Shown here: in pieces, positions 23,328 to 38,345 of the stretch
How the letters are laid out: each line of letters opens with the position of its first letter
How positions within the stretch are numbered: the stretch's first letter is position 1
From: Fibrobacterota bacterium
Lineage (GTDB): Bacteria; Fibrobacterota; Fibrobacteria; UBA11236
Direction of reading: 5' to 3'
Assembly: GCA_947482115.1 (NCBI GenBank)
Contig: CANKII010000001.1
Span: forward strand, 512,785-576,784
DNA: 64,000 nucleotides
Program-made: the position numbers and the translations under genes
The notes under the pieces: model-generated
Databases searched by the model: none
What the model was told of the DNA's origin: nothing
Seen by the model: the letters and a program-made list of their open reading frames with translations, nothing else

Positions 23328-24353
23328 ATGGCTGAACGGATTATTGCGCCCGAGCAACTGGGAGACGACAACGAAAACGATGTCAGCCTGCGACCGGCAT
23401 CGCTGGCGGATTTCATAGGCCAGGAAAAACTCAAGGAAAGTCTTTCGGTTTTTCTCGAAGCGGCCAAACAGCGCAAGGAATCCATCGATCATATTTTGCT
23501 GGCCGGTCCTCCGGGTCTGGGCAAAACCACCTTGGCGCATATCGTGGCCCGTGAGATGGGTGCGAATCTGAAAATCACATCGGGTCCCGCGCTATCGAAA
23601 CCTTCGGAACTGGTCGGCATCCTCAGCAATCTTGAATCGCATGATGTTTTGTTCATCGACGAAATCCACCGCCTGAGCCGTGTGATCGAGGAATTCCTCT
23701 ATCCGGCCATGGAGGATTTCAAAATCGACATCATCCTTGAACCGGGGCCTTCGGCGAAAAGCATCAATATGCCGCTGAAGAAGTTCACCCTTGTCGGGGC
23801 CACCACGCGCAGTGGCATGCTCACCTCTCCCCTGCGGGATCGTTTCGGCCTGAGCTTCCGGTTGGAGATGTACAACGACGATGAGATGAAGCGCATCCTG
23901 CGTCGCTCGGCGCGCTTGTTGCAAGTCGATCTCGCGCCTGATGCGGTGGATCTGCTCGCCTCACGCTGCCGCGGAACCCCGCGCGTAGGCAACCGCGTCC
24001 TGCGCCGCTGCCGCGACGTGGCTCAGGTGCGCAATACGACGCGCATCGATGCGGTTATTGCGGAACGGACTTTGGAAATGCTGGGGATTGATGCGCTGGG
24101 TCTGGATGAAATGGATCGGACGATATTGAAGACCATCGTTTCCAAATTCGAAGGCGGGCCGGTGGGTTTGTCCACGCTGGGGGCGTCGATAGGTGAGGAA
24201 GAAAACACCATCGAGGAAGTCTATGAGCCTTATCTGATCCAGATCGGGTTTTTGAAGCGGACGCCGAGGGGGCGCATGGCGACGGCAAATGCCTACCGGC
24301 ATCTTGGGTTGATTCCTCCGCCGAAGGAACCGTCGCAAGAGGCTTTGTTGTAG
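23328..24353 (+). CDS. ruvB: Holliday junction branch migration ATPase RuvB
   Basis: RuvB is the AAA+ motor of the RuvABC resolvasome. It has the RuvB N-terminal block [19 protein letters not shown], Walker [10 protein letters not shown], Walker [13 protein letters not shown], sensor 1 GATTRSGML and the winged-helix C-terminus with [22 protein letters not shown]. The ATG at 23328 gives the usual MAERI-type start. A GTG at 23310 lies in the end of the repeat element and adds six residues. No clear ribosome-binding site precedes the ATG, probably because the inserted repeat separated the gene from ruvA. Confidence 0.94.
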
Positions 24354-24358
24354 TTTAG

Positions 24359-24538
24359 TTACTTGATAAAATGTTCATAGATATATGTACCAATAATGGC
24401 AGCAATTATTCCGGAGATAAACCCGGATATCGCAGATTCGGTTCTGATTCGTTTTAAGCTTATTGTTGTTTGGTTTTTAGAATTTGAAATTGTACTTCCA
24501 TTTTGGGCCACTTGCGAATTTTTGATCTCGTCTCTCAT
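24359..24538 (-). CDS. 59-residue membrane protein with an N-terminal NSQ..GST motif
   Basis: A small gene with an AAGGA ribosome-binding site just before its ATG, 11 bases after the stop of the 178-residue protein gene. The N-terminal 25 residues are polar and contain NSQVAQNGSTISN (residues 7-19). A basic patch (SLKRIRTES) and one membrane helix (about residues 37-54, SGFISGIIAAIIGTYIY) follow. The motif closely matches NSQAAFGGSTMSD at the C-terminus of the upstream protein. I do not recognise a family. The AT-rich composition matches the other two genes of this locus. It could anchor the upstream protein to the membrane or act as a membrane effector. Confidence 0.7.
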   Translation of the reverse strand: MRDEIKNSQVAQNGSTISNSKNQTTISLKRIRTESAISGFISGIIAAIIGTYIYEHFIK

Positions 24539-24549
24539 TTTACGGTTCC

Positions 24550-25086
24550 TTATTTTTTATTAGATGTGTTAGAGTTATCGGACATTGTAGAACCACCAAA
24601 AGCGGCTTGACTGTTATCTAAATGAACCGAATTGTCGGTAATGTTAATGGTGGAAGTCTCGATATCAACCAATGCTTCATCTTTGTCGAAGATCTTGATA
24701 TCTGTTCCTTCGTAATGGATGATATTTTCAGTATCAGATTTATAGCCAAAATAGCTCCATCTTTGATGTGAAGAAACGATGGCTTTATGACAGTTTCTCG
24801 TCGACTTACAGACCATAAGATAGGCTTCTTCATCATGTTGAATTTGACTAGTATCAATATTTATGTCTTGAAACGATCTGGGCTGTCTTGACATGTAGTC
24901 TAGCCAGACGGCAATCCCAGGGTTATCCAGCGCGATTTTTTTGTAAATACCAAGAATACGATGACTTGTATCAAGGGCGACTTTATAAGGGTTGTCTTGA
25001 GTGAATACCCATAGTAAGTTCGCGAAATAGGTTTTTTCTTGCGCATCGCCCACAAGAACGCAGTCTAATACTGTATAACAAGTCAT
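24550..25086 (-). CDS. Unknown protein partnered with an ATPase
   Basis: A 178-residue protein three bases downstream of the ATPase gene. The N-terminal part (about 1-75) is a mixed alpha/beta region beginning TCYTVLDCVLVGDAQ, with an aspartate in ALDTSHRILGIY. The pattern loosely recalls nuclease-like PIN folds, but I cannot assign it. The C-terminal about 40 residues are beta-prone and low complexity (STINITDNSVHLDNSQAAFG, then GSTMSD). The stretch at residues 158-170 is nearly repeated in the N-terminus of the next protein. As the middle gene of an AT-rich ATPase locus, it is the likely effector or adaptor. Confidence 0.65.
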   Translation of the reverse strand: MTCYTVLDCVLVGDAQEKTYFANLLWVFTQDNPYKVALDTSHRILGIYKKIALDNPGIAVWLDYMSRQPRSFQDINIDTSQIQHDEEAYLMVCKSTRNCHKAIVSSHQRWSYFGYKSDTENIIHYEGTDIKIFDKDEALVDIETSTINITDNSVHLDNSQAAFGGSTMSDNSNTSNKK

Positions 25087-25089
25087 GAA

Positions 25090-26853
25090 CTATTTGCCCC
25101 ATTTCTGGTTTTTAATAAACTCTGTGGTATCGTTTAGGAGTTCACCTCCATAAAAATCTTTTGGCCACTCAAATTGCCCATGTTCTTCAACAAGAAGTTC
25201 TCTTATAGTTCCGCCCTTATCTTCGGTCTGTGGGTCTACCAAATAGATCGCTACTTTATCGGCGGGGATTTTGCCTTCGGAAATCCTTCGCCTAAGTCGT
25301 TTCAGTAAATACTCGCTATGTGTTTCGACTATTAAATATTTTAAAGAAGAATAATTTTTTTTCGAACTTTCAGCCATCACTATATCAATAAATAAATCAG
25401 CAAGATCCGCTTGCATCTTGGGATGCAAGTGTATTTCTGGCTGCTCAATTAAAGTAAGGCTATCACTATGCGATAGAAATCCTTGGATTATAACCGGTAG
25501 AACTTGGGAGATGCCAAATCCGACATCTGTAATGTCCAAGTCCAAAGAGTTTTGGTTGATAACAAGGCTGTGTATAACGTCTTTTAGGTGGCTTACGTCG
25601 ACCTGAAGGTTAAATTTTTTAAACCAATTATTGACTTGGTGCTTTAGATGAAGATCTTCTTTGAGGATCTCAGCAATTGCATCCCCGTCAAAAGTATCGA
25701 CATATTCATTTACTTTAGCTTTATCAAGAAAGTAATAGCGTTTAGGGTGGGCCCTAAGCGGACTGACATAGTTAATCTTGTCATCCTCGAACAAATCCGA
25801 TGCGGCTTCATTAAAACTGATCAAGACATTTCGTAAAATCGCTGTAAAAATTGAATTCCTAGAACCCATTCTTTGGTTGTCGTTCGAATTATTAGCAACA
25901 AAAGAAAAGATGGTCGATGGAACGATAAATATTTGTTTCAAGAAATCCATAGTTTTGTGACTAACATTTTTTAGGTACTTGCTGCTTACTCCGCTTAGTT
26001 TATAATTCGCGCCATCAGGGTCAAATGTCAAAGAAATAATTTCATTGCCATTATTTTCTACTTCCATTTTTATAAGTATTAAATCTTTTCCGTTTACTCT
26101 GATATCATAGTTGATGCTGAATTTACGATCGTGTATATCGTTTTTTATCCCACTTAAAAAGTCATAGGCTAATAAATATTCTGCGACATTTTCTGGAAAC
26201 CTTTGAAGGTGATTAACACCGCTTCGATAAGTGCTGTACTGATGGAGGTGCCTTAAAAAAATGCTTTCGTTTATGAGTAGTGATTCTTCAGGAATCTTTT
26301 TAAGATCGAGTTTAACAAACATGTCGTGTGTTTTTCCGAGTAGATCGGCAAAATTTTCTCTTGTAAAATGCGACGCTAGATCCTTCCTGGAAATTCCAAA
26401 CGGTGTTTCAAAGCTTTTCTTTTTGTTAGAGGAAAACAGGCTTGTAAGCTTGTCAATGAATGTGTCTTTTTCGTTGTATTGCTGGCTATATAGTTGCTGA
26501 ACCAGCGTGGCAAAATTTAACATTTCCTCCAAGTACCTCGACAAATAATCATTCTGAAGTTCGTCCATAATTTTATTGCTATCAAAATCCACTTTTAAAG
26601 AGAGCGTTTTAGATTTATCCTTCTTCCTAATAAGATTAAGGCCTTCCCCTAAACTAACGAATCCGCCGTGAAGTTTTAATGCCGACTTATAATGATTTTT
26701 GCTTAGTGCTGTTTGTTGCAGAAGAAGAAATAATTGCATGATACTGCTTTTGCCTACGCTATTTGCGCCCAGCAAAATTGTTATTGGCTTTATTTTAATC
26801 TCCCCATTAGTGAACGCTTTGTAGTTTTGGAAGGAGATTTTGTTTATCATCAT
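25090..26853 (-). CDS. AAA/ABC-type ATPase with DUF3696-like C-terminus
   Basis: An OLD/RecF-like ATPase of 587 residues. Walker A is LLGANSVGKSS near residue 30, preceded by FQNYKAF. The C-terminal half has the ABC-type LTLIEQPEIHLHPKMQADLA Walker B with conserved glutamate, a switch VETHSEYLLKRL and a terminal GQFEWPKDFYGGELL segment typical of DUF3696 proteins. Such ATPases are common in anti-phage loci. A strong AGGAG precedes two adjacent ATGs (26853 and 26850). Base composition is clearly more AT-rich than the flanking housekeeping genes, which suggests transfer. It probably senses or powers the action of the two small downstream partners. Confidence 0.82.
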   Translation of the reverse strand: MMINKISFQNYKAFTNGEIKIKPITILLGANSVGKSSIMQLFLLLQQTALSKNHYKSALKLHGGFVSLGEGLNLIRKKDKSKTLSLKVDFDSNKIMDELQNDYLSRYLEEMLNFATLVQQLYSQQYNEKDTFIDKLTSLFSSNKKKSFETPFGISRKDLASHFTRENFADLLGKTHDMFVKLDLKKIPEESLLINESIFLRHLHQYSTYRSGVNHLQRFPENVAEYLLAYDFLSGIKNDIHDRKFSINYDIRVNGKDLILIKMEVENNGNEIISLTFDPDGANYKLSGVSSKYLKNVSHKTMDFLKQIFIVPSTIFSFVANNSNDNQRMGSRNSIFTAILRNVLISFNEAASDLFEDDKINYVSPLRAHPKRYYFLDKAKVNEYVDTFDGDAIAEILKEDLHLKHQVNNWFKKFNLQVDVSHLKDVIHSLVINQNSLDLDITDVGFGISQVLPVIIQGFLSHSDSLTLIEQPEIHLHPKMQADLADLFIDIVMAESSKKNYSSLKYLIVETHSEYLLKRLRRRISEGKIPADKVAIYLVDPQTEDKGGTIRELLVEEHGQFEWPKDFYGGELLNDTTEFIKNQKWGK

Positions 26854-27068
26854 ACGCTCCTTTTTATTTCTTACTATACGAATCCTTGCTTTATTCTAGA
26901 AAAAACTATAATGTGAAAAGGCATGAGATGAAAGACTTTTGAAGGCTGCACGAGTGCTTGGGACAAATTGTCCAGAAATTGATTAGAAACGGGATGTTTT
27001 GCTGCTATTTCCGCAGAAAAGAAGTGGTATTCATCCTTGCTGATTCTATTGGGGTCCGAAAATATCTC

Positions 27069-27533
27069 TCACTTAATTCTGTTCTTCTGTTTCCTCTTCA
27101 CCGCATGAATCGCCGAATCCAGCTCCTGTAAAAAAATCCCCCGATCTTTTTTCTGAAACGGCGGCGGGCCACCACGAACCTCTCCCATATCCCGCAGATC
27201 CGCCATCATACTCCGCGTCACCATCGCCGTGCCGATATTGTCCTCCGTAAACGGCCTACCAGTGGGACCCAATACATAGGCCCCGTTCTTCAAACATCGA
27301 TCCGCTAGGGGAATATCCGCTGTAATCACAATATCGAGAGGGCCGGCGTGTTCCACAATCCAGTCATCCGCCGCATCAAACCCATCGCTCACAATTTCCA
27401 ACCGGATATGCTTTTCATCGGGAATGCGCATGTGGGAATTTGCCACCACAACCACAGAAACCTCATGGCGTTTGGCGACGCGATAGATTTCATCCTTTAC
27501 AGGACAGGCGTCTGCATCCACAAAGATGTTCAT
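27069..27533 (-). CDS. YaiI/YqxD family protein (DUF188)
   Basis: A 154-residue member of the UPF0178/YaiI family with a PIN-like fold. The N-terminus MNIFVDADACPVKDEIYR is the family hallmark, followed by VSDGFDAADDWIVEHA, DIVITADIPLADRCL and GPTGRPFT. The conserved aspartates suggest metal binding. The biological role is not established. Codon use and composition return to the chromosomal norm, marking the end of the AT-rich locus on this side. The 215 bases between it and the ATPase gene hold no gene I can support. Confidence 0.92.
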   Translation of the reverse strand: MNIFVDADACPVKDEIYRVAKRHEVSVVVVANSHMRIPDEKHIRLEIVSDGFDAADDWIVEHAGPLDIVITADIPLADRCLKNGAYVLGPTGRPFTEDNIGTAMVTRSMMADLRDMGEVRGGPPPFQKKDRGIFLQELDSAIHAVKRKQKNRIK

Positions 27534-36953: not shown

Positions 36954-37036
36954 GAAATCATCATGTCATTTTACTTCAATGAACTAGATAATATGCAGAA
37001 CTGTTCAATGACATCGTCTTGCGAAGGAGTCACCCT

Positions 37037-37297
37037 ATGATGATCATTAAATTTTTGTGCGGGGTTGCTTTCATTGGGTCTATTGCTTGGTTTATTGCGC
37101 AACCTAACTATGAACCTGCTATTGCGATAGTCACTTCTTTAATAGCGTTTATTGCCGCTTGGGTTGGGGATAAAAAAATCAAACGAAGAGAGAATCAAAT
37201 CCAGACTATTGCTAAGAACGGTATTGGAATTCAAGCCGGTGGTGATGTCAAGATGGGTGACATTCGTGCAGGTAGAGAGTCAACCGATGCTGAATAA
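37037..37297 (+). CDS. Small two-helix membrane protein with C-terminal IQAGG motif
   Basis: An 86-residue protein with a GAAGGAG ribosome-binding site ten bases before the ATG at 37037. Two membrane helices lie at about residues 3-20 and 28-43, with a short turn between. A basic patch (DKKIKRREN) and a polar tail follow. The tail carries GIGIQAGGDVKMGD (residues 62-75). The next protein starts 11 bases before this gene ends and has ATAIQAGGNVTQIN near its N-terminus. I know no named family for the membrane protein. The paired motif suggests the two proteins bind each other through this segment. The AT-rich composition differs from the methyltransferase gene just upstream. Confidence 0.7.
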   Translation: MMIIKFLCGVAFIGSIAWFIAQPNYEPAIAIVTSLIAFIAAWVGDKKIKRRENQIQTIAKNGIGIQAGGDVKMGDIRAGRESTDAE

Positions 37298-38345
37298 TAA
37301 AGATCAAAGCCAAGACGTTGGAAGTGGTGCAACAGCAATTCAAGCGGGAGGTAACGTAACACAAATAAACGTCGGACTAACACCTTCAGAAGCCAGGTCA
37401 ATTGCTTTGGATGTGGCTAAGGCAACTTTCTATGAGCTTGCTGGTGCAGCAAAGGACATCGCGAGCAATCGAGTTGAAGATATTACGGATCAGGTAATAA
37501 AGAAGCTTCAGGAGAATTTTCCTGCAGGACTTCAAAAGGCAAATGACCCTGATTTTCAGTACGCACTTTTTACCGTTCAAAAGGAATATGCTCGAAATGG
37601 AGATAAAGATCTTGGCGATCTGCTTGTTGATCTGCTTGTCGATCGCAGCAAACAAGATCAACGCGACCTCCTTCAGATTGTGCTAAACGAATCGCTTTCT
37701 ACTGCGCCAAAACTAACTGACACCAATCTTGCTGCCTTAGCAGTGGTTTTTCTGTTTAAGTACACTCAAAATCATGGTATTGGTGATCACGAAAAATTCG
37801 GCGAATATCTAGACAAGCATCTATTCCCATTTGTTTCAAAGCTCTCCAAAAACAGAGCAGGTTATCAGCATTTGGAATTCTCAGGTTGCGGGTCGATAGG
37901 GATTACCGGAAATAAACTTGAACACATTCTAGGAAAAATTTATCAAGGGCAATTCTTAAAGGGTTTTGGCCAATCTGAGATATCGAATCGAGCAATCAGT
38001 GTTGGGCTGGATTCTCGTTTTTTCATACCGTGTCTCAATGACCCATCAAAACTACAGGTTAACGCGAACAGCAAAGAAAGCCTAGAGAAATATCTCGATA
38101 CAGAGGGTGTTTTCACCGAAGACAAAACCAAGATTTTGCAGTTATTCGATTTAGGCAAAATGAATGAATCTGAAATAAAAGGAAAGGTTATAGCTATTCG
38201 TCCTTACATGACTGACGTTTTCGAAATGTGGGGAAATTCAGCCATGCAGACATTCACATTAACGAGTGTTGGAATGGCAATTGGACATGCGAACATCAAG
38301 CGTTTGGTTGGAGAATTTGCGAGTTTAGCAATCTGGATTAACTGA
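37287..38345 (+). CDS. Soluble protein of the LPO_1073/Vpar_1526-like type
   Basis: A 352-residue protein starting at the ATG at 37287, which overlaps the upstream gene by 11 bases. The N-terminus (residues 1-30) is polar with the motif ATAIQAGGNVTQIN. An alpha-helical body follows, starting TPSEARSIALDVAKATFYEL and including KLQENFPAGLQ, a segment reading GDKDLGDLLVDLLVDRSKQD, and a helical C-terminal half. From memory this matches proteins labelled LPO_1073/Vpar_1526 family, whose function is unknown. I cannot verify the name here. No catalytic motif is visible. A role as a sensor or adaptor for the upstream membrane protein is inferred from the shared motif and overlap. Confidence 0.72.
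   Translation: MLNNKDQSQDVGSGATAIQAGGNVTQINVGLTPSEARSIALDVAKATFYELAGAAKDIASNRVEDITDQVIKKLQENFPAGLQKANDPDFQYALFTVQKEYARNGDKDLGDLLVDLLVDRSKQDQRDLLQIVLNESLSTAPKLTDTNLAALAVVFLFKYTQNHGIGDHEKFGEYLDKHLFPFVSKLSKNRAGYQHLEFSGCGSIGITGNKLEHILGKIYQGQFLKGFGQSEISNRAISVGLDSRFFIPCLNDPSKLQVNANSKESLEKYLDTEGVFTEDKTKILQLFDLGKMNESEIKGKVIAIRPYMTDVFEMWGNSAMQTFTLTSVGMAIGHANIKRLVGEFASLAIWIN

Follow-up and report, generated by a model that had tools for sequence, protein, structure and literature searches.

A three-gene operon in the window, by which we mean the whole 64,000-nucleotide stretch of Fibrobacterota DNA analysed here, encodes an ATPase, a 178-aa middle protein and a 59-aa membrane protein, the last two of which carry a matching motif at the C-terminal and N-terminal end, respectively. 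The same gene order recurs in seven other loci, with motifs that match within a locus and differ between loci, and we consider it almost certain that this motif-coupled module is real. The module likely serves defence, most likely against phages, and the tags in all likelihood act as a physical coupling between the middle protein, as adaptor, and the membrane protein. On the explanation as a whole, that of a mobile three-gene anti-phage module with a tag-seeded membrane effector, we are evenly divided.

Layout of the operon and its ATPase

All three genes lie on the minus strand with gaps of 3 and 11 bases, and both these spacings and the positions of the two motifs (24577-24615 and 24482-24520) were exactly those given in the preliminary description. 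The features of the locus, in window coordinates, are the following.

24354..27068, no strand: AT-rich insert between ruvB (ends at 24353) and a gene at 27069-27533 that we take to be UPF0178-type (GC content; blast coordinates of L076)
24359..24538, minus: 59-aa single-pass membrane protein, putative effector (transmembrane prediction, Shine-Dalgarno sequence, homologues in seven other loci)
24380..24436, minus: transmembrane segment at residues 35-53, SAISGFISGIIAAIIGTYI, which contains a small-xxx-small ladder and is predicted to be N-in (prediction; GFxSGxxAS kept between loci)
24482..24520, minus: N-terminal tag of the membrane protein, NSQVAQNGSTISN, residues 7-19 of 59 (sequence, alignment, codon comparison)
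24546..24551, minus: Shine-Dalgarno sequence AAGGAA, 7 nt before the ATG of the membrane-protein gene (sequence)
24550..25086, minus: middle protein, 178 aa, a probable catalytically dead PIN-like domain with a C-terminal tag, putative adaptor (profile comparison, model of a fusion protein)
24577..24615, minus: C-terminal tag of the middle protein, NSQAAFGGSTMSD, residues 158-170 of 178 (sequence, alignment, codon comparison)
25090..26853, minus: SMC/ABC-type ATPase (AAA_15/AAA_21), 587 aa, putative sensor (profile matches, motif conservation)
26743..26769, minus: Walker A of the ATPase, GANSVGKSS, residues 29-37 (sequence; conserved in homologues)

The GC content at 25-27 kb is 35-38%, versus ~52% in the surrounding DNA. 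In a genome of the same genus (G163), ruvB and the UPF0178-type gene are adjacent and the operon is absent (blast coordinates, L076); thus, the window operon is a discrete insert. A search for direct repeats flanking it returned nothing convincing. Within the phylum, 2 of 168 genomes carried the operon, namely G148 and the genome of the window itself. Downstream of ruvB, two further genomes of the same genus have other content (L075:1073-1824 and L074:3433-3975; a GIY-YIG-like ORF and a lipoprotein-like ORF) and, since this interval differs between same-genus genomes, it may be an insertion hotspot.

In the Pfam scan, the ATPase matched AAA_15 (4e-28; residues 1-516 of 587) and AAA_21, and its motifs GANSVGKSS (Walker A), DVGFGISQ (signature-like), IEQPEIHLHP (Walker B) and ETHSE were invariant or near-invariant in six homologues. 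The best matches in the defence library were to NsnB (2.2e-52), PDC-M55A and HEC-03B (3.5e-47), all with partial coverage; as judged by sequence, the ATPase is related to NsnB, HEC-03B and AriA. Its earlier designation as DUF3696-type stands in part: no DUF3696 model figured among its Pfam matches up to E=5, but kinship to DUF3696-annotated proteins was apparent via NsnB/HEC-03B and tblastn matches. The likeness to OLD proteins proposed at the same time was not borne out, Pfam and NCBIfam scans having revealed no Toprim domain in the ATPase; nor did it yield a Pfam match to NACHT or NB-ARC. Our literature search returned no paper linking DUF3696 to phage defence, and did not find the origin of the name Nsn. 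By analogy with PARIS, in which an AriA hexamer keeps AriB sequestered before triggering (PMC11455837), the ATPase is likely the sensor of the system. The Toprim/DUF4435 effector AriB is absent beside the window ATPase, where the genes for the middle and membrane proteins are found instead.

Matched tags in eight homologous loci

ATPase-guided searches, which were the route to relatives, brought the number of loci with this gene order to eight, including the window. The other seven are from Fibrobacter (L009/L019), Prevotella (L010), Tannerella (L011), Maribellus (L012), Bacteroides (L057; the contig end cuts the ATPase gene, the visible part of which lies directly upstream) and two IMG/VR proviral contigs (L023 and L024/L058), so that the module is found in bacterial hosts of two phyla plus prophages. 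Their ATPases are 37-49% and their middle proteins 19-42% identical to those of the window; across loci, middle proteins measure ~150-196 aa and membrane proteins 59-92 aa, and in nearly all homologous loci neighbouring genes either touch or share a few bases. The search for a small membrane ORF beside related ATPases, as suggested in the preliminary description, found the membrane protein kept in all eight. Ordinary annotation would miss effectors of 59 aa.

Relatives of the middle protein were detected neither by tblastn in plasmids and phages nor by degenerate patterns in genomes, and viral scans with single proteins gave no matches. A homology search with the small membrane protein across the 168 genomes of the phylum yielded weak, probably chance matches only, and no model of the defence HMM library covers the two small proteins. 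Since an alignment-based search of ~860 Bacteroidales genomes convincingly returned only the seed loci (three weak, partial Bacteroidales matches were left out of the locus count), the system is rare and patchy.

At each locus, a matched motif of ~20 residues is present at the C-terminus of the middle protein and at the N-terminus of the membrane protein. The tags are N/S/G-rich with alternating Ile/Val, and range from NSQ-A--GST and NNGI-I-G-V---K-NNKV to the curli-like INQ-GN-NQA-TG. Beside the window pair (NSQAAFGGSTMSD / NSQVAQNGSTISN), they include those of Prevotella (ENSIVVTSGGTVSGSGINV / ESSIIATGGGSVSNSNINI, also given as IVVTSGGTVSGSGINVEN / IIATGGGSVSNSNINIKS), Maribellus (INQSGNNNQAATGNNS / INQTGNDNQASTGDNS, also given as INQSGNNNQAATGNNSSNIK / INQTGNDNQASTGDNSPNIR), Fibrobacter (NNGIMINGNVENTKLNNKV / NNGIKIGGSVKESKINNKV) and L024 (IKNSTVATGGSIIEGI / IKNSTVATGGSTIKNI); both small proteins of the prophage member contain IKNSTVATGGS. 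The pattern QxGxxNxA of the Maribellus tags, which we take to be the curlin repeat core, occurred three times in 600,211 residues, and two of these matches were the Maribellus tag pair itself. Among 8,472 open frames from the window and the loci, a motif HMM matched only these proteins. Two tag copies were found on the Tannerella and Bacteroides effectors and a tandem copy on the Fibrobacter adaptor, resembling the occasional tandem motif copies on one side in HET-s/BASS4. The tail of the Fibrobacter adaptor (L009:6020-6571) contains a near-exact tandem DNA repeat of the tag (NNGTMINGNVE NNGIMINGNVE) with 97% nucleotide identity, from which it follows that the number of tags evolves through slippage or duplication.

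The two small proteins of the window aligned locally with a score of 45, which was reached by 6 of 2000 shuffles. The same single-locus test gave 0 of 2000 shuffles in four of the eight loci; L023 taken alone was not significant, its score being reached by 707 of 2000. Summed over the eight loci, the within-locus tag score was 441 versus 266 on average across all re-pairings, and was reached by 5 of 40,320 pairings. The proposed check for covariation of the two motifs thus revealed tags that match within loci and differ between them; those of the close relatives L011 and L057 cross-match. Neither of the findings named beforehand as refuting the earlier interpretation, homologous loci that have lost the membrane protein or motifs failing to covary, was observed, and that interpretation is supported. 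In the 16-codon core of the window pair, the same codon is used for only 3 of 9 identical residues and nucleotide identity is 50%, which bears out the earlier statement that the pair is not a recent DNA duplication. The Fibrobacter and Bacteroides pairs likewise use different codons for most identical residues. In L024, the same codon is used at 11 of 13 identical residues, and part of the matching therefore stems from recent DNA homogenisation. Neither the tags nor a membrane partner were present in the related loci of other make-up, 6 with ATPase plus PIN and 13 with ATPase plus nuclease fusion.

The Asn/Ser-rich composition of the tags in AT-rich DNA, together with the nearly identical codons of L024, might be taken to mean that their likeness is without function and reflects a low-complexity tail effect or a partial duplication of gene ends. 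This reading is largely refuted already by the shuffle and re-pairing tests, by the differing codons of the window, Fibrobacter and Bacteroides loci, by conservation across phyla and by the lack of a tag where the effector is missing, and we find it scarcely credible.

The middle protein and its sister families

The middle family matched the N-terminal domain of a family of PIN-like/nuclease fusions (hhalign, 9.4e-6 over 110 columns), to which, on sequence grounds, we consider it homologous; this domain in turn matched the intact PIN family at 7.8e-4, and direct profile comparison of the middle family with PIN gave E=0.004. The AlphaFold model of a fusion protein (pLDDT 83.7) displayed the order b-a-a-b-a-a-b-a-b-a-b, which is that of the PIN domain; the window middle protein itself was modelled poorly (pLDDT 42). 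None of the PIN residues D7, E53, D110, D113 and D134 was conserved in the eight middle proteins. Given these profile matches, the modelled order of strands and helices and the non-conserved PIN residues, the middle protein is probably a dead PIN-like adaptor, or pseudo-nuclease, our confidence in the PIN assignment being moderate. Foldseek found no significant match in the PDB for either the whole-chain fusion model or the window-protein model, the latter being too poor for its search to be meaningful; Card1/Cdn1 (CARF plus nuclease) were among the weak, non-significant matches of the fusion model, so that a CARF-like Rossmann fold is a lesser possibility.

Related ATPases were found next to a ~170-aa PIN protein, whose IDTN and carboxylates are intact, and an RNA ligase in L007, L008 and L039-L041, and next to a PIN protein, with no ligase seen, in L042. 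In L025, L027-L030 and L032-L038, the related ATPase is accompanied by a ~333-aa fusion, that of L006 being shorter; the C-terminal half of the fusions carries GELDLxIE...IIEAM, presumably a PD-(D/E)xK nuclease signature. Together with L077, these loci represent a sister two-gene system (ATPase plus PIN-like/PD-(D/E)xK-like fusion), which is also that of ORF555-ORF333 of the P2-type prophage P2-EC5. The two fusion proteins scanned against the defence library (L025, L030) gave no match.

The window operon resembles HEC-03/NsnB loci in that a related ATPase is directly followed by a ~170-aa protein of the same probable fold, but in those loci the PIN protein retains its catalytic residues and is followed by an RNA ligase, and tag and membrane protein are both lacking. 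With ORF555-ORF333 and its IMG/VR and E. coli relatives it has the N-terminal adaptor domain in common, next to a related ATPase, whereas in these the adaptor is fused to a nuclease-like domain that takes the place of the tag and the membrane protein. This distribution speaks of effector swapping, similar ATPases and a common adaptor-type fold being wired to a nuclease fusion, to a PIN protein with RNA ligase, or to a membrane protein. The sister families include active-looking PIN (HEC-03A) and PD-(D/E)xK nucleases, in keeping with the middle protein being itself a nuclease of unrecognised type that is localised or regulated by the tag pair. We regard this as very improbable, PIN carboxylates being conserved at none of the sites in the eight members and a PD-(D/E)xK domain being absent from them; the HEC-03A model, too, gave no match for the middle proteins.

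Proposed mechanism and a second tag-matched pair

The last gene had been described as encoding a single-helix membrane protein and, consistent with this, one 19-residue transmembrane segment was predicted in its product (residues 35-53). Each of the eight effectors has one C-terminal helix, preceded by a charge of +2 to +5 and followed by one of -1 to +1, and the small-residue ladder GFxSGxxAS is conserved between loci. With the positive charge N-terminal of the helix (predicted N-in), the tag would face the cytoplasm. The prophage member L058 lies between the genes for the terminase large subunit and the portal protein, a typical site of phage-borne defence, beside an Abi_2 gene; this prophage/moron context supports a defence role.

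We infer that the SMC/ABC-type ATPase would be a sensor scaffold that holds the middle protein, the latter acting as an adaptor with a probably PIN-like fold devoid of catalytic residues and a C-terminal tag. Upon infection, the putative trigger, the ATPase would release or cluster the adaptor. The tag of the adaptor would then bring in the membrane protein through the matching tag at its N-terminus, most likely by cross-beta (amyloid-like) templating of the NLR-BASS/HET-S kind. Once clustered in this manner, the single-pass helices with their small-residue ladder would make the inner membrane permeable, so that the infection would be aborted. That a pore is templated by cross-beta stacking, a step proposed by analogy, is possible but to us somewhat doubtful.

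Tag-seeded clustering is favoured because the arrangement of the tags is that of amyloid signalosomes, in which heterotypic motif pairs of diverse sequence are located at the termini of the products of adjacent genes (PMC12261475, PMC7889193). As in NLR-BASS/Bell and fungal HET-S/NWD2, a short motif (~20-25 aa) is found at opposite termini of the products of neighbouring genes; as in NLR-BASS/HET-S, the motif families are mutually dissimilar but matched within a locus, and the effector has a membrane helix (PMC7889193, PMC8086366, PMC12261475). Unlike NLR-BASS, where the sensor is an NLR/STAND protein, the sensor here is an AAA_15/AAA_21 SMC/ABC-type ATPase; the motif, unlike in NLR-BASS/HET-S, is carried by a separate probable pseudo-nuclease adaptor; and the effector, a single-pass protein of 59-92 aa, bears its motif at the N-terminus, that of Bell/HET-S being C-terminal. 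Compared to published BASS3 and sigma peptides, the tags scored above shuffles in just 1 of 30 comparisons and so do not match these peptides consistently, and no Pfam match to the motif was found; the amyloid reading accordingly rests on arrangement and composition. For NLRs, it is known that a matched motif can couple the sensor side with a membrane effector; in the literature and libraries searched, as the preliminary description had anticipated, no system with the composition seen here was found, nor did the literature search find a paper combining amyloid, anti-phage and transmembrane effector.

The main rival to tag-seeded clustering is release from sequestration, in which a constitutively toxic, holin-like membrane protein would be bound through its tag by the middle protein and the ATPase until infection breaks the complex. 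The window system resembles PARIS in that an AAA_15-type ATPase lies beside an effector module and ATPase-controlled release is likely; the AriA ring holds AriB until triggered, but the PARIS effector is a Toprim tRNA nuclease, with neither tag nor membrane protein (PMC11455837). Also in line with sequestration are the tight operon with the effector last and the weak holin-superfamily Pfam match of the Prevotella effector (0.0021, under the curated cut-off). Near-identical tags on both proteins, however, fit homotypic stacking better than receptor-ligand binding, and tandem tag copies occur on either side, adaptor or effector; we judge sequestration fairly unlikely. Alternatively, the small protein might merely anchor the ATPase and adaptor at the membrane to sense phage entry, another activity doing the killing: a single N-in helix with a short tail would suit such a role, and the tags could simply tether. 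The middle protein, however, shows no evident catalytic activity, as judged from its non-conserved PIN residues, and the helix sequence GFxSGxxAS is conserved beyond the needs of a plain anchor, making mere tethering distinctly unlikely.

A second tag-matched pair lies in AT-rich DNA of the window at 37019-38345 on the plus strand, and comprises a small two-helix membrane protein with the C-terminal sequence NGIGIQAGGDVKMGDI (from 37217) and, next to it, a protein of the LPO_1073/Vpar_1526 family (5.3e-92; likely start ATG 37287) with the N-terminal sequence GATAIQAGGNVTQINV (from 37326). The same two-gene arrangement, with NSTAVQARGDIKI / NSYAIQAGNNVNV, was found on the E. coli plasmid NZ_CP148400.1 (L088:2231-3343), where genes for a phage portal and terminase lie alongside. 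Another plasmid and five E. coli chromosomes also gave matches; of the seven matches in all, one covered just 8% of the query.

Whether bacteria possess NLR-independent signalling amyloids is a question raised by reviewers of amyloid signalling (PMC7889193). The eight natural tag pairs of differing specificity, together with the second pair and its recurrence in E. coli prophages, make this question directly testable. It is conceivable, although we rather doubt it, that bacterial immunity beyond NLRs is wired in a general, modular way through amyloid-type signalling. The ATPase sensor and, independently, LPO_1073-family proteins would then each be linked to tiny membrane effectors, and the links would be self-matching cross-beta tags which coevolve within a locus and keep parallel pathways apart. 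The motif of the second pair is shared by its two proteins at the amino-acid level, with 50% nucleotide identity, and their IQxG core resembles what we take to be the RHIM tetrad.
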